Source: Methanomassiliicoccales archaeon
GTDB taxonomy: Archaea; Thermoplasmatota; Thermoplasmata; Methanomassiliicoccales; UBA472
DNA: 33,845 nucleotides
Reading direction: 5' to 3'
Assembly: GCA_026394375.1 (NCBI GenBank)
Contig: JAPKYJ010000003.1
Coordinates: 1 to 33,845, forward strand
The stretch's first letter is position 1. The number at the start of each line of letters is the position of its first letter. Positions 8,688-30,798 of the stretch are shown here, in pieces. The position numbers were made by a program, and so were the translations under genes. The notes beneath the pieces were generated by a model, which saw only the letters and a program-made list of their open reading frames with translations, made no database searches and had not been told where the DNA came from.

Positions 8688-8741
8688 ACTGGATACGGAT
8701 AGTGGTGGGTCTGTCCGGGCCCACTATCTTAACTATCCAGT
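8688..8741. repeat. long palindromic element, copy 2
   Basis: Two nested exact stems are present: ACTGGATA (8688-8695) with TATCCAGT (8734-8741), and GATAGTGG (8698-8705) with CCACTATC (8721-8728). The left half shares ACTGGATA, GG and GTGGGTCTG with copy 1 at 5004-5057, in the same order and spacing. It lies in the gene-free stretch 8546-9160, which also holds a 12-bp palindrome TTTCAATTGAAA (8756-8767). Confidence 0.65.
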
Positions 8742-17308: not shown

Positions 17309-17844
17309 TTGGCCAGCCTGTTTAGTATGTCCTTCGAACATCTGAAGGAACTTCTTCTGAGGTCAGAGCAGACCAATAGTCTCTCCTCCGGGGTTATGGA
17401 GCCAGTCTCTGCGAGGCGTAAAATCAGACCGATTGTCCCCGTGTGCTCAAGGGAGAGTCCCCTCACGCCAAAAGCTCCCTTGAGTTCCGAATCTTCAAGC
17501 AGCTTCGGCAAGGATCTCCTCATCCTGCCGTCGTCCGTGACGAAGAAACAGCGATGACCCTCAGCTGAGAAGACGGTCACTGCAAGGAGAAACGAGGAGA
17601 GCTCGCCCGTGTGCAGGTAAGGGTATCTGTTGCTCAGATAGGTCAGAAGATGCTCACGCGCTGGATGGGTGTTCCGCAGCACAGCGATCCCCCGAAGCAA
17701 TGTTTCAGCATGAAATGACTTGGCCCGCCCGAGTTCTTCTCGGACCTCTTCGCTGATGACCACCCGATAGCGTCGAGTGCAAGGAGGCAAAAGCGCGACG
17801 CTCCTGATTTCGCGAGTCATCGCCGAAATGACGGTGGCATCCAC
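17305..17844 (-). CDS. PIN-domain ribonuclease toxin
   Basis: From GTG 17844 the 179-residue product begins VDATVISAM with the first catalytic Asp (D2), then has SEEVREELG (30-38), TGELSSFLLAV with E81, and FFVTDDGRMRR with D104/D105. This is the usual acidic layout of PIN nucleases (COG2405-like pattern). The C-terminal 60 residues form an extra helical part. It starts 11 bases after the stop of the fused antitoxin gene, the classic toxin-antitoxin order. PIN toxins cleave RNA, and the antitoxin blocks them until it is degraded. GTG is the first possible start that keeps the VVDATVIS motif. Confidence 0.8.
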   Translation of the reverse strand: MDATVISAMTREIRSVALLPPCTRRYRVVISEEVREELGRAKSFHAETLLRGIAVLRNTHPAREHLLTYLSNRYPYLHTGELSSFLLAVTVFSAEGHRCFFVTDDGRMRRSLPKLLEDSELKGAFGVRGLSLEHTGTIGLILRLAETGSITPEERLLVCSDLRRSSFRCSKDILNRLAN

Positions 17845-17855
17845 GACCTTGGCTG

Positions 17856-18458
17856 TTATTGAGACCGCCAGCAGATCCCCTTCTTCTCGATGAGGGCGGC
17901 GAAACTGTCTTGATCCATGTCAGCGATCTGCGCCGCCTTCGCGATACTGATCTTGCCTTTCCGGAGAAGGTCCGCGGCGTAGTCCTTCCGGCTACGTTTC
18001 AGTTCGTCCCACTTCGTGGACTCCGCGATGTACTTTGGATAGCAGGCATAGACGAAGGTCATGATCTCTTCGTCGGGGAGGTCATTGATGAACTGCTTGA
18101 AGTCCTCGATCGTCCCCACGAGCTCTTTTCTTGGCTTCAACTGGTGGAACAGTTCCCGCCCATTCACAGTGAGATTGTACGCCGAGCCGCTTCGCGAGAC
18201 GAGACCCGCCGAAACCAGCTCTTCCAGGACGCTCTCCACAGTTTCGCTGTAGGGGCCTAGGAGATGCGGTTCATAGTCCAGCAGCTGGCCAAGATCTTCG
18301 AACACGTTTGAAACCAGGAAAAGGAGCTTCTGCAGCTTCACCTTGCTCCTCAGGGGCTCGCCGAGAGCCCCGATGGCGAAGAGCAAAACCTTATCCTCGT
18401 CGTTCAGTTGCTCAATGTAATTGCTCGCTATCGTACCACTCCCGACAATATAGGTCAT
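17856..18458 (-). CDS. fused antitoxin: YwgA/SocA-like domain plus UPF0175-like domain
   Basis: The 200-residue product has two parts. Residues about 20-150 (RSKVKLQKLLFLVSNVFEDLG, DYEPHLLGPYSETVESVLEE, LVSRSGSAYNLTVNGRELF) resemble the YwgA / SocA-antitoxin (Panacea-type) fold. Residues about 158-198 (KDYAADLLRKGKISIAKAAQ, then IADMDQDSFAALIEKKGI) match the UPF0175 pattern, an antitoxin family usually paired with PIN toxins and normally a stand-alone protein of about 80 residues. The fusion precedes the PIN gene by 11 bases. A TATA-like TTAAAATC lies about 20 bases before ATG 18458, consistent with a leaderless transcript. Domain calls are from pattern recognition. Confidence 0.75.
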   Translation of the reverse strand: MTYIVGSGTIASNYIEQLNDEDKVLLFAIGALGEPLRSKVKLQKLLFLVSNVFEDLGQLLDYEPHLLGPYSETVESVLEELVSAGLVSRSGSAYNLTVNGRELFHQLKPRKELVGTIEDFKQFINDLPDEEIMTFVYACYPKYIAESTKWDELKRSRKDYAADLLRKGKISIAKAAQIADMDQDSFAALIEKKGICWRSQ

Positions 18459-19822: not shown

Positions 19823-19825
19823 TTT

Positions 19826-20326
19826 TTGGCCGAGGGCGAGCGATCGTACGGAACCGCAAGGGACACCGCCATTCAGCCTGACGGTATCCCTTTCTTGAAG
19901 AGGTACGTCAAGGCAAGGAACGAAAAGTTGGCTGTTGAGTACTTGACCAACGTTGAAGCATTATTTCCCGCGATCCAGGACATTCAGAAACGCGGGGATG
20001 GCTACTTCGCATGCAACAGCCTGACCAAACTGAGGGCGAGGGTTACCGAGGATTCGGGCATCATCTTCGACTTGAGGGCGTGTCGCCGTACCTTCGGACA
20101 AGAGAATGTCAATATGGGCGTACCTTTGGACGCGGTATCTCGTATGATGGGGCATTCTAGCACTAAGACCACTGAGAAGTACTACTGTCGGAAAACGAAC
20201 GACTCGGCGATCCTTGAGGCTCAAAAAATATATGCAAATGCAAGCAAGCCCCAAGAGATAGCCAGATGTCAGGAGCCGAATTATACCCCTTCTGAGAAAA
20301 AATCTTGGTTGCCTGGATATTGCTGA
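19826..20326 (+). pseudogene. C-terminal remnant of a tyrosine integrase from an older insertion
   Basis: The 166-residue translation matches the C-terminal part of the intact integrase at 29557-30771, beginning where that protein reads KGEGTYGRPRE (here EGERSYGTARD). Shared blocks are SNSLTK, LRACRRTFGQ, GHSSTKTTEKYYCRK and EAQ. Identity is clearly partial, so this is a separate, diverged gene and not a duplication made by the present element. The N-terminal half with the first catalytic Arg is missing. It ends at the 16-bp left attachment repeat, in the same orientation as the intact integrase relative to its att site. This fits an older element that used the same tRNA. Confidence 0.85.
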
Positions 20327-20340
20327 AGTGCGGGCGTCGG
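20325..20340. repeat. left attachment site (attL) core
   Basis: GAAGTGCGGGCGTCGG is identical to 30721-30736. It directly follows the old integrase remnant and overlaps its stop codon. Beyond it lies element DNA (CCCGCGATTCC). Confidence 0.8.
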
Positions 20341-20623
20341 CCCGCGATTCCGACTCAATCCAGAAATACATTTCTTGAATTCAATAAATGGTTTTCCGCC
20401 CTCGATACGTCCAGCAAACCCGTTCCCGATCTTGAGGGAAACGCTTTACTCTCTTTTTCCTTCTTCCTTTTTTATGGCCTCAGAAAACTCGAAACGGATG
20501 CTACCCTGCCCCTGTGATACGAAGCATCGTAAGAGGCGTGCTCCGGCCATCGAGTTCCAATGGGCGCTCGTCTGGCTAGCCTTGAGGGACTGACAGCCCC
20601 CCTTTCTTAATGAGAGAGAGCGA

Positions 20624-20715
20624 GCCAGGCATCCCTTGTGCCTTTCATAGCCAGGCATTGAGCCGACCGAAGCCGAGCGAAGGCCAGATGGTCATTGTGC
20701 CCTCGATAGCCAGAC
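20624..20715 (+). repeat. imperfect 33-bp direct repeat near the left end
   Basis: Two units (20624-20656 and 20683-20715) share GCCAG, TTGTGCC and ATAGCCAG at identical internal spacing (offsets 0, 12 and 23), with diverged bases between. They lie 280-375 bases inside attL, in the gene-free left end (20341-20771). They could be arm-type integrase sites or binding sites for the AbrB-like protein encoded next to them. Confidence 0.6.
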
Positions 20716-20771
20716 GTCTCCTCGCGCGCGCGATGCGGCCTCGAAGAAGTAAAATAATCTGCGAGGCGCGC

Positions 20772-20951
20772 TTAAAGGACCCTCTTCTCGGCCTTCACGA
20801 TCACGTCGCCGGCCTCGTTCAGGTAGTACATCGCCTTGCCCCCGATCTCCGCCTCTAAGGTCTTCACGACGTCCTTGGTCAACGTGACGCGGTACTTCTC
20901 GCTGATGTTGCTGGTTCCCAGGAACCTTAATCTATCCTTGCTCGGTGCCAC
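20772..20951 (-). CDS. AbrB-like small DNA-binding protein
   Basis: From GTG 20951 the 59-residue product reads VAPSKDRLRFLGTSNISEKY then RVTLTKDVVKTLEAEIGGKA and DVIVKAEKRVL. This fits the AbrB/MazE-type swapped hairpin (RVTLTKDV plays the part of QVTIPKEV). GGGAGAG lies just before the start. The TATA-like ATACTTATATC (20990-21000) lies about 40 bases upstream. Longer frames to 21269 only read the complement of the next gene. It is the leftmost gene of the element and divergent from 21050-21532, so it may regulate that pair of promoters. Confidence 0.7.
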   Translation of the reverse strand: MAPSKDRLRFLGTSNISEKYRVTLTKDVVKTLEAEIGGKAMYYLNEAGDVIVKAEKRVL

Positions 20952-21049
20952 TTCTCTCCCAACCCTTACAAGTGTCAACGGTATCACCAGATATAAGTAT
21001 TCGGTAGCGCCTGTGTTACTCGTAGCACCATCGCTACGGACGTGGAACC

Positions 21050-21532
21050 ATGAAAAAGGAGATCGAGGACATGAGCGACGAGTATCTGCAGGGCGTTGAG
21101 GACTGCGCGAACTTCGTCTATAGCTGGATCGAGGAACACAAGGAGCTGAACAAGCTGAGCGATATGCTGATGGACATGAGGGGAAGCATCTCTGAGGAGC
21201 GGTTGGCGCGGTTCCCAGATGTGATCGGGTTCGAGGTGCAAGAAGCGCCCTACGCGCCCGAGTATGCAACCACCCTGCAAAGAAGTGAGATCATGGCGGA
21301 AGAGGAAACCCCGATGAGGATTGACATGACCGATCTCAAGGCCATGCAGCTGCTCGATATGCTGATCGACGCGGGGACCGTTTCGATCGGCGCAGACAAG
21401 GCGGAGAAGTGCCCGGTGATCAAGATGCTTTACGACGTCAAGGAGCAGCTCAGGGAGCGGCTGAACCACGATCTCGCCGTGGAGTTCCAAATCCGCCCTG
21501 CAGAGTGCAATGGCTGCGAAGAGCGCAACTAG
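21050..21532 (+). CDS. 160-residue acidic helical protein, unknown function
   Basis: The product begins MKKEIEDMSDEYLQGVEDCA and is mostly helical and acidic (SWIEEHKELNKLSDMLMDMR, MTDLKAMQLLDMLIDAGTVS). It ends with a CNGCEERN tail that includes a CxxC. No family is recognised. It is the only well-supported plus-strand gene in the left third of the element and shares an upstream AT-rich TATA-like segment (20991-21003) with the divergent AbrB-like gene. Confidence 0.7.
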   Translation: MKKEIEDMSDEYLQGVEDCANFVYSWIEEHKELNKLSDMLMDMRGSISEERLARFPDVIGFEVQEAPYAPEYATTLQRSEIMAEEETPMRIDMTDLKAMQLLDMLIDAGTVSIGADKAEKCPVIKMLYDVKEQLRERLNHDLAVEFQIRPAECNGCEERN

Positions 21533-21656
21533 CCCGACCTCCGAGTGTACGCCAACGACGACCTTCCCCGCGCCGGCACGGGATGCACGCCGGCACGCCA
21601 ATTTTCCTCTCAGGGTTTGCGATGCCTTTTTCACCATCCCTGCGGCTGTCTTCTTC

Positions 21657-21791
21657 ATGAACGATGCGCAACAGCAGGGCGAGGGTCCGGACGCGCCTCA
21701 AGAGCCTAAGCGCAAGGATTCGAGCATCGCCAAGGAGATGTTACAAATGGAGTCTATGAACTGCAGGAGGCGCTTACGCGGCGCCGCGTAA
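21657..21791 (+). CDS. 44-residue frame ending in a palindrome, doubtful
   Basis: ATG 21657 opens MNDAQQQGEGPDAPQEPKRK followed by DSSIAKEMLQMESMNCRRRL. The composition is protein-like, but there is no ribosome site or domain. Its stop codon is part of the perfect palindrome at 21774-21791. Confidence 0.3.
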   Translation: MNDAQQQGEGPDAPQEPKRKDSSIAKEMLQMESMNCRRRLRGAA

Positions 21792-21953
21792 TCGACCCCC
21801 TCCTCGATGCACAAATGTGGTTATTTGCGCGCAAATAATCAAGAGCGGTCCGGATGGTCCTGTCGGATGATCAGGGGCGGCCCTCGTCGTTCCTAGGGGC
21901 CTTTTCCGCCTATCGGACGCCCTCGACCTCTCTTTCTACACGGCGCCGTGTAA
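21774..21953. repeat. cluster of three perfect palindromes, candidate origin or centromere
   Basis: TTACGCGGCGCCGCGTAA (21774-21791), TTATTTGCGCGCAAATAA (21821-21838) and TACACGGCGCCGTGTA (21937-21952) are all perfect palindromes. The first and third share a common form, YTACRC-GGCGCC-GYGTAA, 163 bases apart. The region is otherwise gene-free and lies at the 3' end of the leftward operon. Since the element encodes a ParB-like protein and a replicative helicase, these are the best candidates for parS-like sites or an origin. This is inference. Confidence 0.7.
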
Positions 21954-21969
21954 ACCGTGCCTTGGATCT

Positions 21970-22431
21970 TCAAGATGGAGGGGACAGCGTCAGGATGGTA
22001 CGGCAGCGCGATCCTTTCGCCCTGCACTCCTCGCTCTCGCACTCCCTCAAGTCGCCGCCGAGCTCGAGCCCCTTCCCGCAGCCGTCGGCCGAGAGGATCC
22101 TCCCCTCCTTGTCCTTGACGACGATGAGGTAGCACGAGCCCAGCAACCAGGCGCGCGGGTCCTCCTGTCTCCACTCCGGCGAATGGAGCTCCTCGCGCCG
22201 CCCGGTGAGGACGTGGCGGTCCTCCCCCTTCACGAGCGCGCAGCTCAAGCAGGTCTCCGCGTCGCGGATCCTGCCGCACGGGGGCGCGAGATGATGCTCC
22301 TCTCCCCTGCTGCCTAGGTAGATCGGTGCTTGATCCAGTCCGAAGATCACGGTGCACTGGTGATCGTCCGTCTTCTCGCCCGCGTGCAGTTCCGTCTCCA
22401 GCTTCTCGAGGCGCATCTCGATCCCTTTCAT
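21970..22431 (-). CDS. Cys-rich protein, unknown function (paralogue of 22428-22658)
   Basis: From ATG 22431, which overlaps the previous stop as ATGA, the 153-residue product has an N-terminal helix (MRLEKLETELHAG). It has nine cysteines at 26, 52, 61, 64, 100, 118, 131, 136 and 143, including CLSC. A strand-rich part (LLGSCYLIVVKDKEGRILSA) follows. Its start, with helix, C(T)VIF, D and a later CxxC-LV, mirrors the shorter upstream protein, so the pair look like paralogues. Zinc binding is likely. It is the last gene of the leftward operon. Confidence 0.65.
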   Translation of the reverse strand: MKGIEMRLEKLETELHAGEKTDDHQCTVIFGLDQAPIYLGSRGEEHHLAPPCGRIRDAETCLSCALVKGEDRHVLTGRREELHSPEWRQEDPRAWLLGSCYLIVVKDKEGRILSADGCGKGLELGGDLRECESEECRAKGSRCRTILTLSPPS

Positions 22432-22658
22432 GCCTTCCCTCCGTCCACGTCGATCATGCGTATCCGCGTCTTGTCCCGATCGGGCACGAGGCGGCAGTCC
22501 CCACACTCATGCAGGTCCTCGGAGAGCTCCCTGCCTTTCGGGCACTTCGGGATCTCGGTGAGATGTCCGTCCTCGGCCTCGTCGACGAACAGGACGCAGC
22601 GCCCATCCCCAGGCGCGAGCTCCTCCTCGACGCGGCCGATCCTCTCTTTCAGCCCCAT
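22428..22658 (-). CDS. 76-residue CxxC protein
   Basis: From ATG 22658 the product reads MGLKERIGRVEEELAPGDGR, then CVLFVDEAEDG, KCPKGREL, ECGDCRLVPD and an Asp-rich end. Four cysteines (in RCV, KCP and CGDC) could bind one zinc. It starts 5 bases after the stop of 22664-23011 and overlaps the next gene by ATGA, so translation is coupled. It resembles the N-terminal part of the following protein. No family is recognised. Confidence 0.65.
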   Translation of the reverse strand: MGLKERIGRVEEELAPGDGRCVLFVDEAEDGHLTEIPKCPKGRELSEDLHECGDCRLVPDRDKTRIRMIDVDGGKA

Positions 22659-22663
22659 CGCGA

Positions 22664-23011
22664 TCAGTCTCCGGGTCCGCGATGCGCGGTTGTCGAATTT
22701 CCGATAGGCGCTTCCAATGCGTCCCAGGCGCGGCCAGCGAGTTCCTTGTCGTTGATGATCAGCCGAAAGATCCTGCTCGAGGCGTCGACCTTCGATCGGT
22801 CTTCCTTGCCCGTCCATCCGGCGAGCCTGAGGAGATCCTCGTGGGCCTGCGGATCGTCGAACGCCCGCCTCGCTAGCTCCCTCGCCTCCGGGTCCTCGAG
22901 GAAGGCGCGTTCCCGCTCCTCCTCGAGCCGGCGGGCCGCTCCGACGTCCTGCCGCTCCGATTCGTCCCGCAACACGCGCTCCACGCTCCCGACCCTGTAC
23001 TCCATGCTCAT
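22664..23011 (-). CDS. 115-residue charged helical protein
   Basis: From ATG 23011, overlapping the previous stop (ATGA), the product begins MSMEYRVGSVERVLRDESER. It is rich in Arg and Glu and helical throughout (RLEEERERAFLEDPEARELA, SSRIFRLIINDKELAGRAWD). No domain is recognised. It belongs to the tightly coupled leftward operon. The longer frame to 23263 runs out of phase through the upstream gene and is not used. Confidence 0.65.
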   Translation of the reverse strand: MSMEYRVGSVERVLRDESERQDVGAARRLEEERERAFLEDPEARELARRAFDDPQAHEDLLRLAGWTGKEDRSKVDASSRIFRLIINDKELAGRAWDALEAPIGNSTTAHRGPGD

Positions 23012-23457
23012 CTCCTCAACTCCTTCACCATCTCCTCGAGCTCGCAGATCCTCTTCTCGAGGTCGGAATGTTCGATCGTCGTCCTCAGCACGTTGGCCAT
23101 GCTCGATAGGGCAGACAGCTTCCTCGCCGAGACCTTGCCCGCCGCGCCCGCATTGAAGAGGATCGAGGCGGCCTTGCGGAGCTCCTCGAGGGACGTTATC
23201 GGACGGTCGACCCAATCGGCCAGGCCGTCGTGCGAGTTCGCCTTCCGCCCGCCGTTCTTGCACGACCTCACGCGCTGCGCCACGATCTCCGGCCGCTTAT
23301 CATGGTAGTAGCAGAGGGCCGAGTCCTTGAGCGCGTAGGCGCGGCAGCCAGCGCCATTAGCGGAGACGTGGGAACAGCGCTTCCTCTGGGGCTCTGAAAG
23401 TGGCGGTTTCCTCGCGTCGTCCCCTGGGTCCTGATCTGCCACGTCTTCACCATCCAT
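23008..23457 (-). CDS. zinc-finger protein of the C-x9-C-x10-C-x2-H type with coiled coil
   Basis: The 149-residue product has CSHVSANGAGCRAYALKDSA followed by LCYYH: C28, C38, C49 and H52. This is a zinc-finger pattern common in small phage and mobile-element proteins, some near terminase or nuclease genes. A helical part follows (SLEELRKAASILFNAGAAGK), then a C-terminal coil (HSDLEKRICELEEMVKELRR). DNA binding is plausible. Between 23458 and 23594 only a doubtful 33-codon TTG frame (after GGGGAGGG) is seen, overlapping this start. Confidence 0.7.
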   Translation of the reverse strand: MDGEDVADQDPGDDARKPPLSEPQRKRCSHVSANGAGCRAYALKDSALCYYHDKRPEIVAQRVRSCKNGGRKANSHDGLADWVDRPITSLEELRKAASILFNAGAAGKVSARKLSALSSMANVLRTTIEHSDLEKRICELEEMVKELRR

Positions 23458-23594
23458 CTAGCTCGATGAGGCCGCCGCCCCCGTCAAGAGGAAAGGAAGG
23501 AGCACGAGGGCCATGGCGCTGGGGCGATGACCGGCCAAGACCTTTCAAAGCTGTACCCTCCCCACTGTCTCCCGGAGGCGGACGGTCTTCAGAT

Positions 23595-24125
23595 CTACGC
23601 CCCTGCCTCCTCGTCCTCGGCGGTCTCGGCGCTCGCCTTCTGTGCGATCAGCTGCCTGATCGGCGCGCCCATCGTGAGCTTGATCTCGTACCGTGCCCCG
23701 CACTTGCAACCATACTTTCCTTCGACCGTTGGATAGGGGTTCGTGATCAGGATGACGGTCGACTCCGTGCTGGTGTAGTAGATGCGAGCCTCTTCCTGCT
23801 CGGCCATCACGATCATCTGCCTGAACTCGGGGATGGTCTTCTGGCACGCAGGGCACCGGATCTCGTCGAAGTCTTTGATCCCGGGCCGCTGCATCTCGCC
23901 ATCGATGAAGAACAGCATCCTGGCGTTGTAGGCGTTCAGCAGCCGTTCCTTGATGAGCCTGACCCTCTCCCGCTCGTTCTTCTCGAAGGCCGCTTCCTTC
24001 TCCCATTCGATGCGTTCCCTGGCCGCCTGCGCCTCGTCGAGCCGCTGCTTCCCTACCTGCTCCCGGGTGATCCCCTTCTCCTTCAGGATCTGGTCGAGGA
24101 CCTGGGTATCGGTCGCCCTGATCAT
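23595..24125 (-). CDS. coiled-coil protein with zinc ribbon, unknown function
   Basis: The 176-residue product has an N-terminal charged helix of about 65 residues (RLDEAQAARERIEWEKEAAF), then a CPAC (91-94) and CKCG (140-143) pair, which form a zinc ribbon with an inserted beta segment (EARIYYTSTESTVILITNPY). It ends in an acidic tail. The start ATG overlaps the stop of the preceding gene by ATGA. No family is recognised. Nucleic-acid binding or an adaptor role is possible. Confidence 0.7.
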   Translation of the reverse strand: MIRATDTQVLDQILKEKGITREQVGKQRLDEAQAARERIEWEKEAAFEKNERERVRLIKERLLNAYNARMLFFIDGEMQRPGIKDFDEIRCPACQKTIPEFRQMIVMAEQEEARIYYTSTESTVILITNPYPTVEGKYGCKCGARYEIKLTMGAPIRQLIAQKASAETAEDEEAGA

Positions 24126-24616
24126 TCGGAATCACGCTCCTCCAACGATTGGGTGCGAGCGTTCCAGGCCATGACCGTCCTCGGCCCGAACTCCTTCTCG
24201 ATCGATTCCCTGTCCAGGGGGAGGCCGTTCTGTGAACTGACAGTCTGCTTGAGATCCTCCCACGCCGCGGGACTGCTCATCTGGCCGTTCACCGCAGCGG
24301 AGATCAGCGATGCCGCATACGTCGCCGGCCGCAACACGTTCAACTCCGCCTGCGCGTATAGGGCGGCGAGATCGTCATCGGAGATCGTCACCGAGACACT
24401 GACCCCGCGCTTGCTGGACGGCGAAGCCTCCGTAGTCCTGTTCGCGTTCATTGCGGCGTTGATGGCGCAGACCAATCCAGGAACGCGCTTCGACGCCCTG
24501 ATCATCAGAGCCAGCGAGGCACTGGCATTAGTCAGTGGTTTCAGGCCGTTCTTCTGAGCTTGCTCCTTAAGGCGGTTGTAGTCGCTCGACGCGAGCGTAA
24601 GGCTGATTTGTCCCAT
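24122..24616 (-). CDS. protein with two tandem RHH-like segments
   Basis: The 164-residue product contains two similar strand-helix-helix blocks: ISLTLASSDYNRLKEQAQKN followed by NASASLALMIRASK (4-44), and VSVSVTISDDDLAALYAQAE followed by RPATYAASLISAAVNG (72-112). Each resembles one ribbon-helix-helix protomer, so one chain could form a complete DNA-binding dimer. It heads the leftward operon. A TATA-like TTTATCCC (about 24639-24646) and a direct repeat of CAATGC lie before the ATG. It is probably a regulator. Confidence 0.65.
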   Translation of the reverse strand: MGQISLTLASSDYNRLKEQAQKNGLKPLTNASASLALMIRASKRVPGLVCAINAAMNANRTTEASPSSKRGVSVSVTISDDDLAALYAQAELNVLRPATYAASLISAAVNGQMSSPAAWEDLKQTVSSQNGLPLDRESIEKEFGPRTVMAWNARTQSLEERDSE

Positions 24617-24651
24617 GCCAACGCATTGAAAGGCATTGGGATAAATGGAGA

Positions 24652-25587
24652 CTAACGAGCCTGGTTGTTATCGACTCGTTGGATCAACATCTCATTTCGC
24701 TCCTTCTCCAGCAACTCCGCTCCGAAGATCTCGATCAGTCGTCCCTCGACGTGATCGCGTATCTCCGGCGACGATGCCACTGCCATCATAGCTGAGTAGG
24801 AGTCAACCACATCCTTGCCCGCCCAATAGAGGACTTCTTTGCACAGAGCGGCGCGCGTCCGTTTCAAGAGGATCATAGGCGTCAGCAACTCCCAAGGCTC
24901 GGGAGACCACCCCTCTTCGTAAGTGCCCAGGATCAGCCGGTAGAATGTCATCCACCTCGCCCTTCCCTTCTTGCTTCTGGCGTGTTCAATTCGCCTGGAT
25001 GTGACCTTGAGAATACCGACTTCCACCAATGCATCGACCGCTCGCTGGAACTGCATGTCGGACGCAAATTCTGACCTCATCATTGCCTGAGCTTCATGGA
25101 TCCTGGAGATTGAATAGAGGCGAGTCCGGGGCACCCAGCCATCATAGAGCATGGTCCGCATTGTCGGTGAAACGCCTTCTGGTGGTGTCCTTGTCCGCGA
25201 TTCCTTGAAGATGATCCTAGCCAGCTTGACATCCTTCTTCCTCTCCTTCTGTCCGCGGGAGGTCTCAGACTCGTATCTCTCGAGCTTGCGGTCAAGGAGC
25301 ACGCAGCGGGCGAATGCATTATCGACCTCCTCCCATGTCTGCGTCGTGGCGTTCCATCGATCGGTGCTCCGAACAACGAGAGCATGACCTGGGAGATTGC
25401 AGCGGGATGGAGCCTTTCCAGGAGATTTCCCTTCCTCGAAGTCCGTCAGTTTCTTGATGAGGGCCTCCTTATCCATCTTGAATAGCTCGAACAACTCGCG
25501 CTCTCCGTTCCCATGGAGCCATCCGATCGGACACAGTCGCTTTACCCAATTCCATTCCTCCTCCACTTTGTCAGATGTCCTCTTCAA
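24652..25587 (-). CDS. 311-residue protein, winged-helix-like, unknown function
   Basis: The product is basic and helical. A segment at about 175-215 (FQRAVDALVEVGILKVTSRR) looks like a winged helix, and the region around 120-165 (KERKKDVKLARIIFKESRTR) is rich in Lys and Arg. No catalytic motif is visible. It is transcribed leftward from the central control region, divergent from the RHH regulator and the ParB operon. By position it could be a replication initiator or a transcription regulator, but I do not recognise a family. Confidence 0.75.
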   Translation of the reverse strand: MKRTSDKVEEEWNWVKRLCPIGWLHGNGERELFELFKMDKEALIKKLTDFEEGKSPGKAPSRCNLPGHALVVRSTDRWNATTQTWEEVDNAFARCVLLDRKLERYESETSRGQKERKKDVKLARIIFKESRTRTPPEGVSPTMRTMLYDGWVPRTRLYSISRIHEAQAMMRSEFASDMQFQRAVDALVEVGILKVTSRRIEHARSKKGRARWMTFYRLILGTYEEGWSPEPWELLTPMILLKRTRAALCKEVLYWAGKDVVDSYSAMMAVASSPEIRDHVEGRLIEIFGAELLEKERNEMLIQRVDNNQAR

Positions 25588-25607
25588 AGGCCGGCCCCCT
25601 GCATTTG

Positions 25608-25643
25608 ACTAACGTTTTCGTTAGTGATTCGTCCTATAATAAA
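25608..25643. promoter_or_regulatory. central control region with operator-like palindrome and TATA box
   Basis: ACTAACG (25608-25614) and CGTTAGT (25619-25625) are exact complements around TTTT. CCTATAATAAA (25633-25643) is a TATA box for the rightward operon, about 33 bases before ATG 25676. The palindrome sits between the divergent starts at 25587 and 25676. ACTAACGA also appears at 24651-24658, beside the end of the leftward gene. Confidence 0.65.
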
Positions 25644-25675
25644 CCCTTGTCCGATTGGTCCGTCGAGGCGGGCAA

Positions 25676-25870
25676 ATGACAGAAAGAAGAGTCTCCTTCG
25701 GATGTTCCTTGAGAGCGGACTTGCTGGCTAGAGTGGATGCTGGGAGAGGACTGATTCCTCGCTCAAGATATATCGAGCATCTCCTCGACAAAGCATTGGA
25801 AGACGAGGCGGGGGGATGCATCGAGCCGCACGCGCGATCTAAAGTGCGGCCGAAGGGGGCGTCCCCATGA
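25676..25870 (+). CDS. RHH/CopG-type regulator, first gene of the rightward operon
   Basis: From ATG 25676 the 64-residue product reads MTERRVSFGCSLRADLLARV then RSRYIEHLLDKALEDEAGG, a typical ribbon-helix-helix layout (strand RRVSFGCSL, helix, turn, second helix). Such proteins repress their own operon. The 18-bp palindrome 50-68 bases upstream is the obvious candidate operator. The stop codon overlaps the ParB-like start (ATGA), so the two are translationally coupled. Confidence 0.75.
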   Translation: MTERRVSFGCSLRADLLARVDAGRGLIPRSRYIEHLLDKALEDEAGGCIEPHARSKVRPKGASP

Positions 25871-27261
25871 TCACGCACAAAAGCACGGCCGCCACCGAGG
25901 AGGAATCGCTCGAACGGTTCTATAACACGGTCGCAAAGTACGGGCACACGAAAGACGAGTTCACCATCCTTAGCATAAAGAAGGACGGCCGGGGCACGTG
26001 GACCATCTCGTACGAGCGTGCGCGGAAGCCCTCCACCGAATTGCCGAACGCGCAACTCTGCGATGCATGCCGGGCCTGGAATCCCAATAAGGGGTGTTCG
26101 GAAGGCAGCCGCCCAGGGACCTGCGGGCACAGCATCACTATCAGCACTGCGGCGACGTCGGAGAAGAAGCCGATCATCTCAGCGCCGGCGCCCGCACCAC
26201 CGCCGACCGTGGATCAAGTCCCGGTCGAGCTCCCCCTGTCGGCGATCGTGATCAGCGGCCGCAACCCGAGGAAGCACTTCGACAAGGACAGGCTGCATGA
26301 CCTGGAGGAGTCGATCAGGGCGCATGGCGTCGTTCAGCCGATAGTGGTCAGGAGGAAGGGCTCGAAGTACGAGCTCATCATCGGCGAGCGGCGCGTCCTA
26401 GCCGCTAGGGATGCCGGCCTGCAGAAGATCCCGGTCATCGTCCGCGAGTTCTCCGACGCGCAGCTGCTCGAGGTGATGCTGGTCGAGAACCTGCAGCGCG
26501 AGGACCTTGATCCGATCGAGGAGGCGGAGGCGATCAGGCAATTGTTGGAGGATGGTCATCTCACGCAGACGGAGCTCGGAAGGCGTCTCGGCAAGAGCCA
26601 GGATTGGATCTCCCTTCGGCTTCGCCTCTTAGAATGCCCCGAGGAGCTGCGTTCCCTCGTTACGAGGCGCCTCGTAGAGCCTTCGGCCGCGGCCGACGTC
26701 TTGGGCAAGCGCGACGATCCCGCCTTCCCGACCCTCATTCAGGCACTGCGAGAGGAGGCTGAACAGCACGGCAAGGTAACGCAAGCAAGGACCCGGGAGC
26801 TGATCAAGGGAACGATCCCGACAGCGCCATCGCCCCCTATAGTGAAGGAGTCCGAGCCTGCGGAGGACAAGGAGGCCGACTCAGAAGCGGAGCTAGTTGA
26901 GAAGGAGAGGCTGGCCCAGATCGACAGCAGATCTGAATCATATGAAAATTCATATGAAAAGCCCGAGCCAGCATCCGCGATGCCTCCCAGGGAGTCAGTC
27001 TTACCTACTGAGTTACCTACGGACCTACCTACCGAGTGCCATGTCCTCAGCTGCGGCGAACAGACCGAGCCCGGCGGCCATTGGTGCTCCGAGCATCTGA
27101 CGCCGGAGAGCAGGAAGCCCAAGGAGACGGCCGAAGAACCCGACCCCAACGAACGCCGCATCGTCACGCGAGCGCAGTATGCCCTGCAAGGCCGGAGGCT
27201 CTTCCTGAATCCAGGCGATGAGAGGCCACCGAAGTTCGAGGAACTGCCGGAGGTGCTCTGA
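25867..27261 (+). CDS. ParB-like protein with extra zinc-binding modules
   Basis: The 464-residue product has a ParB/Spo0J nuclease-like (CTPase) domain at about 118-215: SGRNPRKHFD, GVVQPIVVRR, IGERR and VMLVENLQREDLDPIEEA. A helix-turn-helix follows (LTQTELGRRLGKSQDWISLR, 232-251). Two additions are unusual. One is an N-terminal Cys cluster (C65, C68, C77, C86 with H88). The other is a C-terminal C391-x4-C396, C407-x2-H410 motif after a Pro/Thr repeat (LPTELPTDLPTE). ParB proteins bind centromere sites and spread on DNA using CTP. No ParA-type ATPase is encoded in the element, so it may act in partition without ParA, in replication control or as a regulator. Confidence 0.85.
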   Translation: MITHKSTAATEEESLERFYNTVAKYGHTKDEFTILSIKKDGRGTWTISYERARKPSTELPNAQLCDACRAWNPNKGCSEGSRPGTCGHSITISTAATSEKKPIISAPAPAPPPTVDQVPVELPLSAIVISGRNPRKHFDKDRLHDLEESIRAHGVVQPIVVRRKGSKYELIIGERRVLAARDAGLQKIPVIVREFSDAQLLEVMLVENLQREDLDPIEEAEAIRQLLEDGHLTQTELGRRLGKSQDWISLRLRLLECPEELRSLVTRRLVEPSAAADVLGKRDDPAFPTLIQALREEAEQHGKVTQARTRELIKGTIPTAPSPPIVKESEPAEDKEADSEAELVEKERLAQIDSRSESYENSYEKPEPASAMPPRESVLPTELPTDLPTECHVLSCGEQTEPGGHWCSEHLTPESRKPKETAEEPDPNERRIVTRAQYALQGRRLFLNPGDERPPKFEELPEVL

Positions 27262-27305
27262 TGGCGATGGCTGTCTACCTCGAACCCCAAGGGGTGCGGC
27301 GATGA
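27261..27305 (+). CDS. 14-codon coupling frame
   Basis: A tiny frame (MAMAVYLEPQGVRR) starts in TGATG at the end of the ParB-like gene and stops in ATGA at the start of the next gene. Both junctions overlap, so ribosomes could pass through it by re-initiation. It may be only a translational bridge. Confidence 0.3.
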   Translation: MAMAVYLEPQGVRR

Positions 27306-27496
27306 AGCGCCTCATCATCGAGCTGGAGGATGAGGACTACGCGGTGATCGAGAAGACCTGCAAGGAGGGCAACATGAGCATGGATCACTATGTGGGGGTC
27401 CTCATGCGATTCGTAGTTGCGTTCCTTGGAGGGCGGGCTCCGGAGTTGCCTGAGATCTGCATTGCGCCTGACAGCGAGAGACGCGAGGGGACGTGA
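27302..27496 (+). CDS. 64-residue RHH-like protein
   Basis: The product begins MKRLIIELEDEDYAVIEKTC and continues with MSMDHYVGVLMRFVVAF, which fits strand-helix-helix of the RHH fold. A short acidic/basic tail follows. The ATG overlaps the preceding tiny frame. It sits inside the rightward operon between the ParB-like and helicase genes. Exact role is unknown. Confidence 0.6.
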   Translation: MKRLIIELEDEDYAVIEKTCKEGNMSMDHYVGVLMRFVVAFLGGRAPELPEICIAPDSERREGT

Positions 27497-27500
27497 TCCG

Positions 27501-27716
27501 TTGAGGCCAGAGCGAAGTGAAGAACTGCGGATCCTCATCGGCGAGACGCTCGGCGGACGAATTAGGAAGAGGGCGGCTCAGCTCGGCGTCTACCCGGGCG
27601 ACTACGCGAGGGAGCTGCTGATCCGGGCGGTCGACAAGGACCTGCGCCGCGACATCACCGCCGCGTGCCTGTTGAAGGATGGACGGCCATCCTGCGGGAA
27701 GACGCGGCCCGACTGA
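27501..27716 (+). CDS. 71-residue RHH-like basic protein, TTG start
   Basis: A TTG at 27501, 5 bases after the previous stop, opens LRPERSEELRILIGETLGGR then IRKRAAQLGVYPGDYARELL. The helix-turn-helix spacing (AAQLGVYPGDYARELLIRAV) resembles RHH regulators. GAGGGGACG precedes the start. The longer frame upstream overlaps the previous gene out of phase. It is probably another small DNA-binding protein of the operon. Confidence 0.55.
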   Translation: MRPERSEELRILIGETLGGRIRKRAAQLGVYPGDYARELLIRAVDKDLRRDITAACLLKDGRPSCGKTRPD

Positions 27717-27733
27717 TTCTCGGAGGCGATCAG

Positions 27734-27910
27734 ATGGACGGGAATATCGAGAAAACGAGGACGCGGAAGCCCCGGGCGACCGTGTATCTGGCTGACGATC
27801 GGGCCTATGAGGAGATCCTAGAGCTCCTCCGGGCGAGGGTGTTCATCGTGTACACGAAGACCGCGAGCACGACGTGCCATAAGCTCGTGATCAAGGAGGA
27901 GGGATTCTAG
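27734..27910 (+). CDS. 58-residue basic protein, unknown function
   Basis: From ATG 27734, with GGAGG 9-13 bases upstream, the product reads MDGNIEKTRTRKPRATVYLA then DDRAYEEILELLRARVFIVY and KLVIKEEGF. It is a small alpha/beta protein with a basic N-terminus. It ends with TAG immediately before the helicase start (TAGCATGG). No family is recognised. Confidence 0.6.
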   Translation: MDGNIEKTRTRKPRATVYLADDRAYEEILELLRARVFIVYTKTASTTCHKLVIKEEGF

Positions 27911-27911
27911 C

Positions 27912-29339
27912 ATGGTCATCCTGAGAGACCGCGACTTCAATGGCGAGATCTTCAACATCCCCGAGCTCAAGGAGAACCTGTACTTCCCGGATCCGAGGAC
28001 CGTCGCAAGGGAGGACAGGAAGGCGAAGCTCGAGGTCAACCCCAAGGGCGTCGCCAACGTGATCCTCGACCGGTACCGCATGGTCACGCTGATCGACTCC
28101 GGCGAGATGTTCTGCTACGAGGATGGCGCCTACGTTCGCGGCGCGGAGGCCCTGGTGCAGAACGCCTGCGAGATGATGCTCGGTGAGGGCGCCTCCAACC
28201 ATATCGTAAAAGAGGTCCTCGGGCATGTGCAGCGGTCGACGCCGTTCGACCGGGCGCTCGCCCTCGATGGCACGAAGCATCTCTGCCTCTCCAACGGGAT
28301 CCTCGACGTCCTGAGCGGGGAATGGCGCGACCATACTCCGGACGACGTTTTCTTCATGCACATGCCAGTGACCTACAATCCCCAGGCGACGTGCCCGAGG
28401 ATCGACGGGTTCATCTCCCAGGTCTTCGCCGAACCCGACCGCGAGCTCGCCTACGAGATGATCGCCTACACCCTCGTGCCCGGTTACCCAATCCAGAAGG
28501 CCTTCGCCTTAGTCGGATCCGGGAACAACGGCAAGAGCACCTTCCTTGGCCTTGTCCGGGCCTTCCTCGGCGCGGGGAACATCTCGACCAACTCGCTGCA
28601 GGACCTCGACGAGAACCGCTTCTCAGCCTCCGCCCTCTACCGGAAGAAGGCGAACATCTGCGCCGACCTCAGCAGCCGAGAGCTGCACAGGACAGCGATG
28701 TTCAAGGCCCTCACCGGCGGCGACCGCGTCCGTGCCGAGTTCAAGCACGTCGACGCCTTCGAGTTCGAGAACTCGGCGAAGCTCTTCTTCTCGATGAACC
28801 AGGTCCCGCTGAGCGTCGACGACACCGAGGCGTTCTACCGGCGGTGGATCCTCATCGACTTCCCGTTCAGGTTCGAAGGGAGCAACCTGAACCTGAACAA
28901 GCTCGCGGAGATTACCACTGGCCCCGAGTTCTCCGGCCTGCTGAACAAGTGCCTGGAGCTCATCCCCAAGATCCTAGAGCGCAAGGGCTTCACCAACATG
29001 GAGACGACGGACGCGGTCAGGCAGAAGTACGTCCGCATGTCCGATTCGGTCTACTGCTTCGCTGAGGAGCAGCTAGAGGCCCTCCCCGGGGCGTGGGTAT
29101 CGAAGCGCGAGCTCTACGCCCGATACCTTGAGTGGTGCCGCTCAACGCGCGTCCCGGCCGTCAAGGAGCGCAAGTTCAAGGCCCGCCTGCTTGAGAACAT
29201 CCCCTCCGTCGCGGAGGGGCGGCAGAGGGACGAGGAGGGGCACAAGGTGCACGTTTGGGAGGATGTCCGCCTCAAGGGGGCCGACGAGATCGCGGAGGAC
29301 GAGAAGGCGCGACAGTCCGAGATGGGGGACTTCCCATGA
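27912..29339 (+). CDS. SF3 helicase, D5/P4 primase-helicase type (no primase domain)
   Basis: The 475-residue product has a D5_N-like region before the ATPase. It then has Walker A GSGNNGKST (202-210), a Walker B-like ANICADLS (248-254), sensor LFFSMNQVP (N296) and an arginine-finger region YRRWILIDFP (309-318). A winged-helix part follows near the C-terminus (SKRELYARYLEWCRSTRVPA). Such proteins unwind origins of viruses and plasmids. The usual N-terminal primase module is absent, so a primase must come from the host or an unrecognised gene. It is translationally coupled to the next gene (ATGA). Confidence 0.9.
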   Translation: MVILRDRDFNGEIFNIPELKENLYFPDPRTVAREDRKAKLEVNPKGVANVILDRYRMVTLIDSGEMFCYEDGAYVRGAEALVQNACEMMLGEGASNHIVKEVLGHVQRSTPFDRALALDGTKHLCLSNGILDVLSGEWRDHTPDDVFFMHMPVTYNPQATCPRIDGFISQVFAEPDRELAYEMIAYTLVPGYPIQKAFALVGSGNNGKSTFLGLVRAFLGAGNISTNSLQDLDENRFSASALYRKKANICADLSSRELHRTAMFKALTGGDRVRAEFKHVDAFEFENSAKLFFSMNQVPLSVDDTEAFYRRWILIDFPFRFEGSNLNLNKLAEITTGPEFSGLLNKCLELIPKILERKGFTNMETTDAVRQKYVRMSDSVYCFAEEQLEALPGAWVSKRELYARYLEWCRSTRVPAVKERKFKARLLENIPSVAEGRQRDEEGHKVHVWEDVRLKGADEIAEDEKARQSEMGDFP

Positions 29340-29560
29340 TGCGCCGCCGATCGAGTCTCAAAGGTGGTCCAACAGCCAGACGTTCAAAGGACCAGGTATC
29401 CCACCCTCTTTCACACTGCACGCGCAAGAGAGAGAAAGGACTTAGAGTAATAGTGGGCGGGAAGGTGGGTTATCCGGTCCTGCCGACTGCTGGCCCTTGG
29501 ACCGGATTCGCGGACCTCATCAAAGCTTCACCGATCGAGGGGGCGGACTCTCAGGGATGA
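29336..29560 (+). CDS. 74-residue basic protein between helicase and integrase
   Basis: ATG 29336 overlaps the helicase stop (ATGA), and its stop TGA overlaps the integrase ATG (ATGA at 29557-29560). Double overlap in a tight operon strongly supports a real gene. The product is basic at the N-terminus (MMRRRSSLKGGPTARRSKDQ) with a short beta/alpha C-terminal part (LRVIVGGKVGYPVLPTAGPW). By position and charge it could be a recombination directionality factor, but no family is recognised. Confidence 0.6.
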   Translation: MMRRRSSLKGGPTARRSKDQVSHPLSHCTRKREKGLRVIVGGKVGYPVLPTAGPWTGFADLIKASPIEGADSQG

Positions 29561-30771
29561 CGAGCTCCGCCGCCGTGCCCGCCGGACTGCAGTTAAATAC
29601 GCTGCAGGCGCATCTTCTCCCTGAAAGGAGGAGCTATGCCGCGATCGGAGTTCGCGGCGAGCTGCTCCCCGTGGTCGAGAGGCGCAAGCCCGGGCCGAAG
29701 CGGGGCGTGCTGGACGTGAGCCGGTACCCGTTCATGGCCTGCGCGAACCGCTACCTCGACGAGGTGGGGCCGGCCTATTCGGAGGCGACGGTCAAGGAAC
29801 TGGAGCGGAGGTTTCGGCGCATGGCGAAGGACTTCAGGACCCTCATGGAGGCGGGCAAGGTCGAGAGTGATCGCCCGGACCTGATGAAAGAGAAGGAGGT
29901 CCTGGCGTACATCGGCCTGATGAGAGGCAGGAAGCTGGCCGAGAGCGGGATGGCGCACAACCTGTCGGCGCTGTCCGGGCTGCTCATGTACAACAACAAC
30001 ACGGCGGTCGAGCGGACCCGGAAGCGCTTCCCGCAGATCTTCCCGAAGCGCAAGACGGTGAGGAAGGACCCGATCAGGCAGGACGCGGCGGCAAGGATCA
30101 TCGAAGCGGCCGCGGGCGCGAGCGATTGGAGGCGCCTGCAGGCCTACGCCCTGGTCGTCCTGGCCCTGTGCACCGGCCTGCGACCGAAGGAGCTCCGGCT
30201 GGCGGAGGCGGAGGACATGGACCTCAAGCTGCACACGCTCGGCGCGAAGCACGTGAAGGGCGAGGGCACGTACGGGCGGCCGCGGGAGGTCCCGATCCGT
30301 CCGGAGGGATGGGCCACGATCGAGCGCTACATGAGGATGAGGGACGAGATCGTGGCCGAGAAGGCCCCGGGCAACCCGGCGCTCTTCCCCGCCTTAGGCG
30401 ACGCCGGCGGGGATGGGTTCTACGCCTCCAACAGCCTCACCAAGGTCAAGGGCATCGTCGAGGACGAGCTGAAGGTCAGCTTCGAGCTCCGGGCCTGCAG
30501 GCGGACCTTCGGACAGGGCTGCGTCGACGAGGGCATGTCGATCGAGGGCGTCTCGGTCCTCCTCGGGCACGCGACCACCAAGACCACGGAGAGCTACTAT
30601 TGCCGCAAGCGATCGGACGTAGCGATCAGGGAGGCTCAGGCGCTGTGGAACGCGCCGCTGCCTCCGGGCGCAAAACCGCCAACATTGAATTCTAGAAACG
30701 GACCGTCTGGCTTGAGCAGGGAAGTGCGGGCGTCGGGATTTGAACCCGAGTTTCAAGCTTGGCAAGCTTGA
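29557..30771 (+). CDS. int: tyrosine recombinase (integrase) of the element
   Basis: From ATG 29557 the 404-residue product has a SAM-like core-binding domain (60-165) and a catalytic domain. The catalytic domain has Arg I in CTGLRPKELRLAE (R209), the box II variant LRACRRTFGQ (R-x-x-R in place of H-x-x-R), GHATTKTTESYY with H338, and the nucleophile Y347 or Y348. The longer frame from 29497 is disfavoured because the ATGA coupling marks 29557. The last about 15 residues (from codon 390) are read antisense through tRNA-Gly, so the C-terminus is supplied by the host tRNA gene. It catalyses integration into and excision from that tRNA. Confidence 0.92.
   Translation: MTSSAAVPAGLQLNTLQAHLLPERRSYAAIGVRGELLPVVERRKPGPKRGVLDVSRYPFMACANRYLDEVGPAYSEATVKELERRFRRMAKDFRTLMEAGKVESDRPDLMKEKEVLAYIGLMRGRKLAESGMAHNLSALSGLLMYNNNTAVERTRKRFPQIFPKRKTVRKDPIRQDAAARIIEAAAGASDWRRLQAYALVVLALCTGLRPKELRLAEAEDMDLKLHTLGAKHVKGEGTYGRPREVPIRPEGWATIERYMRMRDEIVAEKAPGNPALFPALGDAGGDGFYASNSLTKVKGIVEDELKVSFELRACRRTFGQGCVDEGMSIEGVSVLLGHATTKTTESYYCRKRSDVAIREAQALWNAPLPPGAKPPTLNSRNGPSGLSREVRASGFEPEFQAWQA
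30721..30736. repeat. right attachment site (attR) core
   Basis: GAAGTGCGGGCGTCGG repeats 20325-20340 exactly. Twelve of its bases belong to the 3' end (acceptor and T-arm) of tRNA-Gly on the minus strand, the usual target of this integrase class. Confidence 0.85.
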
Positions 30772-30798
30772 GTGATAACCAGTCTACACTACGCCCGC
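30725..30798 (-). tRNA. tRNA-Gly (anticodon GCC)
   Basis: The minus strand folds as a full cloverleaf. The acceptor stem is GCGGGCG/CGCCCGC, the D-stem GTG/CAC, the anticodon stem CAAGC/GCTTG around loop TTGCCAA (anticodon GCC), and the T-stem TCGGG/CCCGA around TTCAAAT. The discriminator is A and CCA is not encoded. The 3' end abuts the integrated element and the tRNA is intact, so integration restored it. A TATA box lies upstream at about 30826. Confidence 0.95.

Follow-up and report, generated by a model that had tools for sequence, protein, structure and literature searches.

Cryptic integrated elements described in Thaumarchaeota span 2.6-98 kb and carry varied genes for replication, S3H helicase and RCR Rep among them (PMC6563490). 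Proviruses that encode pleolipovirus VP4-like fusogens have been reported from Methanomassiliicoccales (cited in PMC10919331). Orphan ParB-CTPase proteins with lineage-specific extensions occur on mobile elements without ParA (PMC12704722). In B. subtilis, the site parS-359 lies inside the parB gene (PMC4442127), and in Noc the Gln that follows GKS reads A1 of the site (PMC7383237). We analyzed a window of 33,845 nucleotides, the whole stretch of archaeal DNA under study, and found an integrative element whose orphan parB gene contains a candidate site for its own product.

The element was 10,396 bp long and was bounded by exact 16-bp direct repeats at 20325-20340 and 30721-30736. The left copy (attL, 20325..20340, plus strand; core GAAGTGCGGGCGTCGG) was placed by the repeat match and by empty-site alignment across the junction. 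The identical 16-bp core of the right copy (attR, 30721..30736, plus strand) forms the 3' end of the predicted tRNA-Gly(GCC) gene (30724..30798, minus strand), which is the integration target. In G009 and G003, which represent two other genera, the tRNA-Gly(GCC)/leuS site is present without the window element. When the window flanks were joined (20340 to 30737), they aligned with G009 at 88% identity over 259 bp with two 1-base gaps and with G003 at 73% identity over 457 bp, and both alignments were unbroken across the junction. Because the joined flanks align through the junction to unoccupied sites, the repeats are beyond chance; the element is genuine and its boundaries are correctly placed. 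The original prediction of an element of about 10.4 kb in tRNA-Gly(GCC), bounded by 16-bp repeats, thus agrees with both the repeats and the empty-site alignment. The unoccupied site in the two genera shows the boundaries that it had predicted, and in another genus the same tRNA is occupied by a related SF3-integrase element, a recurrence that it had considered. Its assignment to an archaeal lineage was borne out by mcrA, which is present in the host genome; the host is a methanogen, probably a member of the Methanomassiliicoccales.

The tyrosine recombinase (integrase) gene (29557..30771, plus strand; PF00589, 1e-10) reads through attR, and in the circular form the frame is predicted to run 405 codons from the ATG and to close on a different tail. 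Outside the young element, what is left of an older, different integrase, its C-terminal part (19823..20326, plus strand), ends at attL, and in the tree this remnant grouped with the G003 integrase (SH-aLRT 99), apart from the window integrase. Since an integrase stump of an older, different type was left at attL, the tRNA-Gly(GCC) site is a reused integration hotspot. A third copy of the repeat, bounding the older element, was searched for and not found, and the left flank showed no synteny in relatives. The stump, the hotspot and the palindromes described below were absent from the original prediction. Across the host family, integrases of the window type adjoin the 3' ends of tRNAs for Gly, Leu, Ala, Pro, Lys, Val and Met, and the replication modules of the elements that carry them are interchangeable; the direct repeats of sister elements measured 18, 19, 16 and 21 bp.

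The SF3 (P4-type) helicase (27912..29339, plus strand; TIGR01613, 9e-55) had no primase domain and contained 475 aa, versus open frames of 567-971 aa in most of the stronger class-level relatives. Upstream of this replication gene is a 58-aa protein (27734..27910, plus strand) with relatives at the same position in four or five other elements; its fold prediction was of low confidence, and a PDB search returned no match. Three small proteins on the same strand resembled RHH proteins, two of them by eye and with no profile match (27501..27716 and 27302..27496) and the third (25655..25870; PF12651, E 0.17) with a 4-nt overlap with the parB start. The first gene of the divergent operon, on the minus strand, encodes a 311-aa protein with a possible winged helix (24652..25587), for which single-sequence fold prediction was unusable (pLDDT 41) and no homology to the divergent proteins of about 320 aa in sister elements was detectable. 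A weak 52-aa match of this protein to one in the G005 capsid-gene cluster was judged too short to be of use. The minus strand further encodes a 164-aa protein possibly composed of two RHH-like repeats, by eye (24122..24616), a 176-aa protein with two CxxC pairs that appears zinc-ribbon-like by eye (23595..24125), a 149-aa Cys/His protein (23008..23457) whose homologue in the G003 tRNA-Arg element is 49% identical, a 113-aa protein to which the ORF list and profile scan assigned no family (22664..23005), a small Cys-containing protein with no family assigned in the ORF list (22428..22658), a 153-aa protein with nine Cys in the ORF list (21970..22431) and a small protein that is AbrB-like by eye (20772..20966), whose homologue in sister locus L052 is 34% identical. 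On the plus strand, we also found a 44-aa ORF (21657..21791) and a 160-aa protein that matched DUF2683 below the cut-off (21050..21532; E 0.003).

The original prediction had named an integrase, an SF3 helicase without primase and a ParB without ParA, and these assignments held: PF00589, TIGR01613 and TIGR00180 matched, and profile searches revealed neither ParA nor primase among the element ORFs scanned. The two divergent operons that it described are visible in the ORF list as overlapping or abutting genes. As for its claim of at least five RHH/AbrB-like proteins, the resemblance can be seen by eye, but no profile match was significant (best RHH_3, E 0.17), so the label is by eye only.

The ParB/Noc-type protein (25867..27261, plus strand; TIGR00180, 1e-42) was 40-50% identical to bacterial Spo0J/Noc; Noc was the best NCBIfam model, and a scan of named genomes returned bacterial Noc/Spo0J only. 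It contained the ParB_N CTP-binding domain, a conserved GERR motif and HTH_ParB, together with extra Cys-rich stretches at both termini, the N-terminal one lying in an extension of 116 residues. Of the hallmarks of ParABS, the ParA ATPase partner was absent among the element ORFs scanned, and the ParA-binding motif (L/F/I)G(K/R)G(L/F/I) was not seen by eye. Judged by its motifs, the protein would be an orphan ParB/Noc-type CTPase clamp.

The palindrome TACNNGGCGCCNNGTA had three matches in the 1.73-Mb genome, all three of them inside the element, which makes up 0.6% of the genome. Candidate parS 1 (21774..21791; TTACGCGGCGCCGCGTAA) overlaps the stop codon of the 44-aa ORF, candidate parS 2 lies at 21937..21952 (TACACGGCGCCGTGTA), and candidate parS 3 (26661..26676; TACGAGGCGCCTCGTA) lies within parB with codon 268 (Arg) at its centre. 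Between candidates 1 and 2 we found an unrelated, perfect 18-bp palindrome (21821..21838; TTATTTGCGCGCAAATAA), which is possibly a second operator or an origin element. Three palindromes of at least 16 bp within 200 bp occurred in none of 300 Markov-model sequences.

Comparison of five parB genes (window, L256, L260, L261 and L276) revealed perfect palindromes centred on the identical nucleotide. In the four genes from outside the window, which belong to two tailed-virus-type contigs and two provirus-like elements, the palindromes were 14-18 bp long and differed in sequence. Given the protein and codon usage, the chance probabilities were 0.0094, 0.0008, 0.0032, 0.047 and 0.0005, respectively, and the joint probability of the observed lengths at the exact centre was about 5e-13; these values somewhat overstate the case because the palindromes had drawn attention to four of the five genes ahead of the formal test. 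L276 was found afterwards by ParB similarity and is the sole independent confirmation. Among about 90 control parB genes, a single palindrome of at least 14 bp lay near the site, with a common centre not established, and the L266/L247 ParB of the same order had no embedded palindrome. An IMG/VR search for more tailed-virus ParB relatives gave only distant ones that lacked the motif region. The L261 site is exactly the Noc NBS ATTTCCCGGGAAAT (PMC7383237, PMC8429893), and the L260 site contains the parS core TTTCACGTGAAA; among nine genomes searched, these two sites were present only in the two with these parB genes, in 2 and 3 copies. L256 has one copy of its site in a 6.4-kb contig. Position 1 was A in each of the five embedded sites, and Gln followed GKS in each of the five ParBs. 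Regarding the Noc specificity residues Q173/K179/K184/R201, residue 173 was Gln and residue 179 was Arg in the four ParBs aligned. In place of the Arg at 201, which in Noc reads C6, these had Ser or Gly, yet the L261 site has C6; site recognition is therefore not fully explained by known rules.

The embedded palindrome might simply follow from the protein sequence (II-S/R-R-E/R-I) and have no function in the DNA, given that the conserved amino acids allow a CG-centred palindrome and that 14 bp near the centre is reached in 3-5% of synonymous versions. We consider this highly improbable in view of the joint probability, the presence of the same sites outside parB only in genomes with the gene, and the symmetric synonymous changes between L256 and L276, where Arg-Arg-Arg is kept and CGT CGA is swapped for CGA CGT with the palindrome preserved. 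It is also rather unlikely that the palindromes are operators of one of the element's small AbrB- or RHH-like repressors, with the copy in parB as a downstream operator and ParB bound elsewhere. Several small DNA-binding-like proteins are encoded by the element and two of the three sites are within or border an intergenic region, as such a reading would have it, but the same-codon palindrome recurs in five elements in which parB is the only visible common gene, and two of the site sequences are known ParB/Noc sites.

As to the element itself, a decayed provirus or virus satellite appears improbable. The ParBs most similar to the window protein are of the tailed-virus type and come from the same order, the module is found again in tailed-virus-type and provirus-like elements there and in one IMG/VR tailed virus, and the weak 52-aa match of the 311-aa protein also points to viruses. 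Against this, profile searches of the element proteins scanned found no terminase, portal, capsid, spike or packaging ATPase, no element protein has a hydrophobic segment, and the genes are open and tightly packed, without decay. Neither the terminase, portal and major capsid protein of tailed viruses (Caudoviricetes) nor the VP4-like fusogen, membrane proteins and ATPase of pleolipovirus-like viruses were present. The Pfam/PHROGs scan of the element proteins detected no virion genes, as the original prediction had stated for structural genes, and no conjugation genes were found at the profile level. A tyrosine recombinase and att repeats at a host gene end were present, and the lack of virion and conjugation genes leads us to regard it as an integrative plasmid ("cryptic integrated element"). 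The proposed plasmid-virus intermediate was not upheld: virion genes were not detected, and what the element has in common with viruses is the ParB module. That the type is little known was supported by IMG/VR, which contained no close relatives of the SF3 helicase, the 311-aa protein or the integrase; alignment-based SF3 matches there were only 23-33% identical, and in named phage and plasmid collections the best matches were ordinary P4-type primase-helicases only, at 23-35%. A fixed genomic island, now as immobile as the neighboring stump, is a minor possibility: neither a second copy nor a circle was seen, and the integrase tail runs through attR and no longer has the stop codon found next to att in relatives, but the 16-bp repeats are exact, the integrase and replication ORFs are intact and so is the tRNA.

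We therefore favor, as the likely explanation of the whole, an integrative plasmid-like element with a ParB clamp and candidate sites that include one inside its own gene. The recombinase is expected to act between a 16-bp attP and the tRNA-Gly(GCC) 3' end so that the tRNA stays intact, and the element entered beside the stump of the older integrase. The excised circle may replicate through the SF3 helicase with a primase from the host. The ParB clamp is expected to load on three 16-bp palindromes, two in the convergent spacer (21774-21952) and one in parB, and, as no ParA is encoded, it would serve maintenance, copy control or autoregulation and not ParA-driven segregation. With one site built into parB, protein and address would move together between plasmid-like and virus-type elements. 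It is somewhat less certain, though still reasonably probable, that parB is a self-addressed gene circulating among plasmid-like elements, tailed viruses and provirus-like elements of one order, whose specificity and embedded site co-diverged into several orthogonal ParA-free pairs.

Such a gene would provide a concrete, testable ParB-site system on mobile elements of archaea, whose chromosomes are said generally to lack ParABS. The diverged pairs, one with the bacterial Noc site and one with a parS/NBS hybrid, form a natural series useful for studying the evolution of DNA-binding specificity, and an in-gene loading site would explain how ParB modules work at once after moves between plasmids and viruses. 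The element family also offers candidate integration sites and replicons for methanogens without genetic tools.

Like the cryptic integrated elements of Thaumarchaeota, the window element has a tyrosine recombinase, a tRNA or gene 3' end as target, direct repeats and no virion or conjugation genes (PMC6563490); it differs in its phylum, in its orphan ParB with candidate sites and in the 58-aa protein that recurs upstream of replication genes. As in SSV-type suicidal integration (PMC8371274), the integrase gene reaches across att, but SSV integrases are split into int(N) and int(C), whereas here the ORF stays intact, the catalytic part is unsplit and only the C-terminal tail changes. Provirus-like L260 and L261/L274 of the sister family share this kind of ParB and carry embedded sites; in L260 and L261 an integrase lies at a tRNA, and L260 and L274 look by eye like pleomorphic viruses. 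The window element carries an SF3 helicase in place of a rolling-circle-type Rep and encodes no membrane protein. The orphan ParB-CTPases of PMC12704722 are alike in their mobile elements, lack of ParA and lineage-specific extensions, and the passages considered describe neither embedded cognate sites nor such Methanomassiliicoccales elements. Bacterial ParB/Noc proteins (B. subtilis, Caulobacter) share the ParB fold with GERR and the CG-centred, perfect palindromes of 14-16 bp. The in-gene site of B. subtilis lies elsewhere in the gene than the archaeal embedded site. In contrast to the bacterial systems, those described here belong to archaeal mobile elements, lack ParA and have diverged sites, with the embedded one at a fixed codon after the DNA-reading helices.

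The element was bounded by two copies of a 16-bp direct repeat, GAAGTGCGGGCGTCGG, at 20325-20340 and 30721-30736, and the right copy covered the 3' end of tRNA-Gly(GCC) (30724-30798, minus strand). Repeats of 16 bp within 11 kb were by themselves only moderately unlikely, and exact 14-mers were also present in the region; the decisive boundary test was the empty site, for which the window flanks were joined at the repeat and aligned to relatives. The joined flanks aligned without interruption to two genomes of other genera in the host family, G009 (88% over 259 bp) and G003 (73% over 457 bp), in both of which the sequence left of the tRNA continued straight into the tRNA. The boundaries given in the original prediction are right because the alignments to both genomes were unbroken at the joined repeat. 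The D-arm of the host tRNA-Gly(GCC) was one base longer than that of the relatives (anticodon at 36 vs 35).

This tRNA is an integration hotspot, used at least two times by different integrases. The C-terminal third of another integrase lay left of attL, at 19823-20326, and showed 65% identity to the complete integrase at the tRNA-Gly/leuS site of G003, 77% to the integrase stump at the same site of G009 and only 46% to the element's own integrase. In the tree, the remnant clustered with the G003 integrase (SH-aLRT 99), separate from the window integrase. Very probably, the attL of the young element is the tRNA-proximal end of the older one. Farther out in the left flank (17305-18458), a UPF0175 domain fused to a winged-helix-like domain adjoined a PIN-like ORF (by eye), a possible toxin-antitoxin-like pair.

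Scans of the element against Pfam, PHROGs and NCBIfam, with some small ORFs covered by only part of these libraries, matched only ParB, SF3 helicase and integrase, in agreement with the earlier statement that structural virus genes were not recognisable; no membrane-like segment was found in any element protein. Its gene content indicates that the element is no virus. The predicted lack of a primase and of a ParA partner was also borne out: the window helicase lacked the primase domain found at the N-terminus of related SF3 proteins (475 aa vs open frames of 567-971 aa in most of the stronger class-level relatives), and no ParA was present among the element ORFs scanned. A 52-residue N-terminal stretch of the 311-aa protein (24652-25587) matched the C-terminus of a capsid-gene-cluster protein of G005 (L257, 5363-5521; 36%, E 3e-5). 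Between both divergent operons, an inverted repeat (ACTAACG-TTTT-CGTTAGT, 25607-25624) may be a shared operator.

Residues 117-295 of the window ParB matched bacterial Spo0J, ParB and Noc structures, and the GERR motif was kept. Four perfect palindromes of at least 16 bp were observed in the element vs 0.37 expected. Three of these shared the form TACNNGGCGCCNNGTA (21775-21790, 21937-21952 and 26661-26676), the third lying within parB, and the only three matches to this form in the 1.73-Mb genome were the element's sites. Palindromes were also found in the parB genes of L256, a tailed-virus-type contig of G005 (TATCCGTCGACGGATA), and of two provirus-like elements of the sister family, L260 (TTATTTCACGTGAAATAA) and L261 (ATTTCCCGGGAAAT). 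Upon protein alignment of the four parB genes, the palindrome centre fell in the same column and in the same phase of the codon, directly after the first base of a conserved Arg codon. L276, an IMG/VR tailed virus (terminase, portal and RusA in PHROGs) found afterwards via ParB similarity, carried the palindrome TTATCCGACGTCGGATAA at offset zero from this centre. Between L256 and L276, Arg-Arg-Arg was identical and two codons were swapped symmetrically by synonymous change, and the palindrome therefore survived. When protein sequence and codon usage were kept constant, a palindrome of the observed length at the exact centre had a probability of 0.0094 for the window parB, 0.0008 for L256, 0.0032 for L260, 0.047 for L261 and 0.0005 for L276. 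Among about 90 control parB genes (bacterial, viral and other archaeal), only one had a palindrome of at least 14 bp near the site, its centre not established as matching.

The L261 palindrome was the exact B. subtilis Noc site, and that of L260 contained TTTCACGTGAAA, the parS core, and had A at position 1 (reference sequences from PMC7383237 and PMC8429893). Among nine genomes searched, these two sequences occurred only in the two genomes bearing these parB genes: the G050 element had two copies of its site, and G068 had three, one in parB and two on another contig (L274, C40), beside a Rep gene of the rolling-circle type and ORFs for small membrane proteins. L261 (C41) and L274 were parts of one provirus-like element, labelled pleomorphic virus by eye; neither had matches in PHROGs. 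The Noc residue that reads adenine 1 is Gln173 (PMC7383237). Gln followed GKS in all five ParBs, and A1 was present in all sites; position 201 departed from the Noc pattern, an argument against carrying the known code over unchanged.

The host probably belongs to Methanomassiliicoccales, judging by the mcrA gene of the window genome, kinship groupings and the genome sizes in its family (1.1-2.7 Mb). The element is one member of a modular family, since integrases, repeats, varying replication genes and small proteins recur across relatives. This integrase type was present in 14 of the 22 host-family genomes, and the integrase 3' ends abutted tRNA 3' ends (Gly(GCC, TCC), Leu(GAG, TAA), Ala, Pro, Lys, Val and Met) or else the distal repeat. 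The window genome held a candidate second element, L039 (C19), with 18-bp repeats at 8728 and 13683, one at tRNA-Gly(CCC), and the integrase at the distal repeat; at L040 (C24), a 19-bp repeat of the tRNA-Leu(GAG) 3' end was found at 7767 and 9509, with an integrase stump adjoining the tRNA. A sister element of about 11 kb, L258 (G003, C35, 4133-15237), lay in tRNA-Arg(TCG) with 21-bp repeats, and a relative's element at tRNA-Gly(TCC) had 16-bp repeats. In two genomes, tRNA-Gly(TCC) carried a small integrated element (L046, L050), each encoding a rolling-circle-type, HUH-like Rep (by eye). The replication gene was an SF3 helicase in the window, G003 and G005 and another ATPase in L258 and L052, that of L258 being unrelated. 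The 58-aa protein encoded upstream of the window's replication gene had small counterparts of similar length in the same place in the elements L043, L049, L051 and L052, and L258 probably has a homologue (18% identity); the 149-aa Cys/His protein (23008-23457, minus strand) had a homologue in L258 (49%).

We propose that the element would excise and then replicate as a circle, with ParB clamps loading at the three candidate sites; without ParA, ParB may act in maintenance or autoregulation. parB and its embedded address may have been co-transferred between plasmid-like and virus-type elements. A literature search of partial coverage turned up no earlier description of the element family, nor of ParB sites on archaeal elements of this type, nor of a site kept at a single codon in both plasmid-like and virus-type elements. 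ParBs that lack a ParA partner have already been described from mobile elements (PMC12704722), and parS inside parB is known in B. subtilis (PMC4442127). Integrated elements of this kind are also known, and the window element fits, by gene content, the cryptic integrated elements of Thaumarchaeota (PMC6563490).
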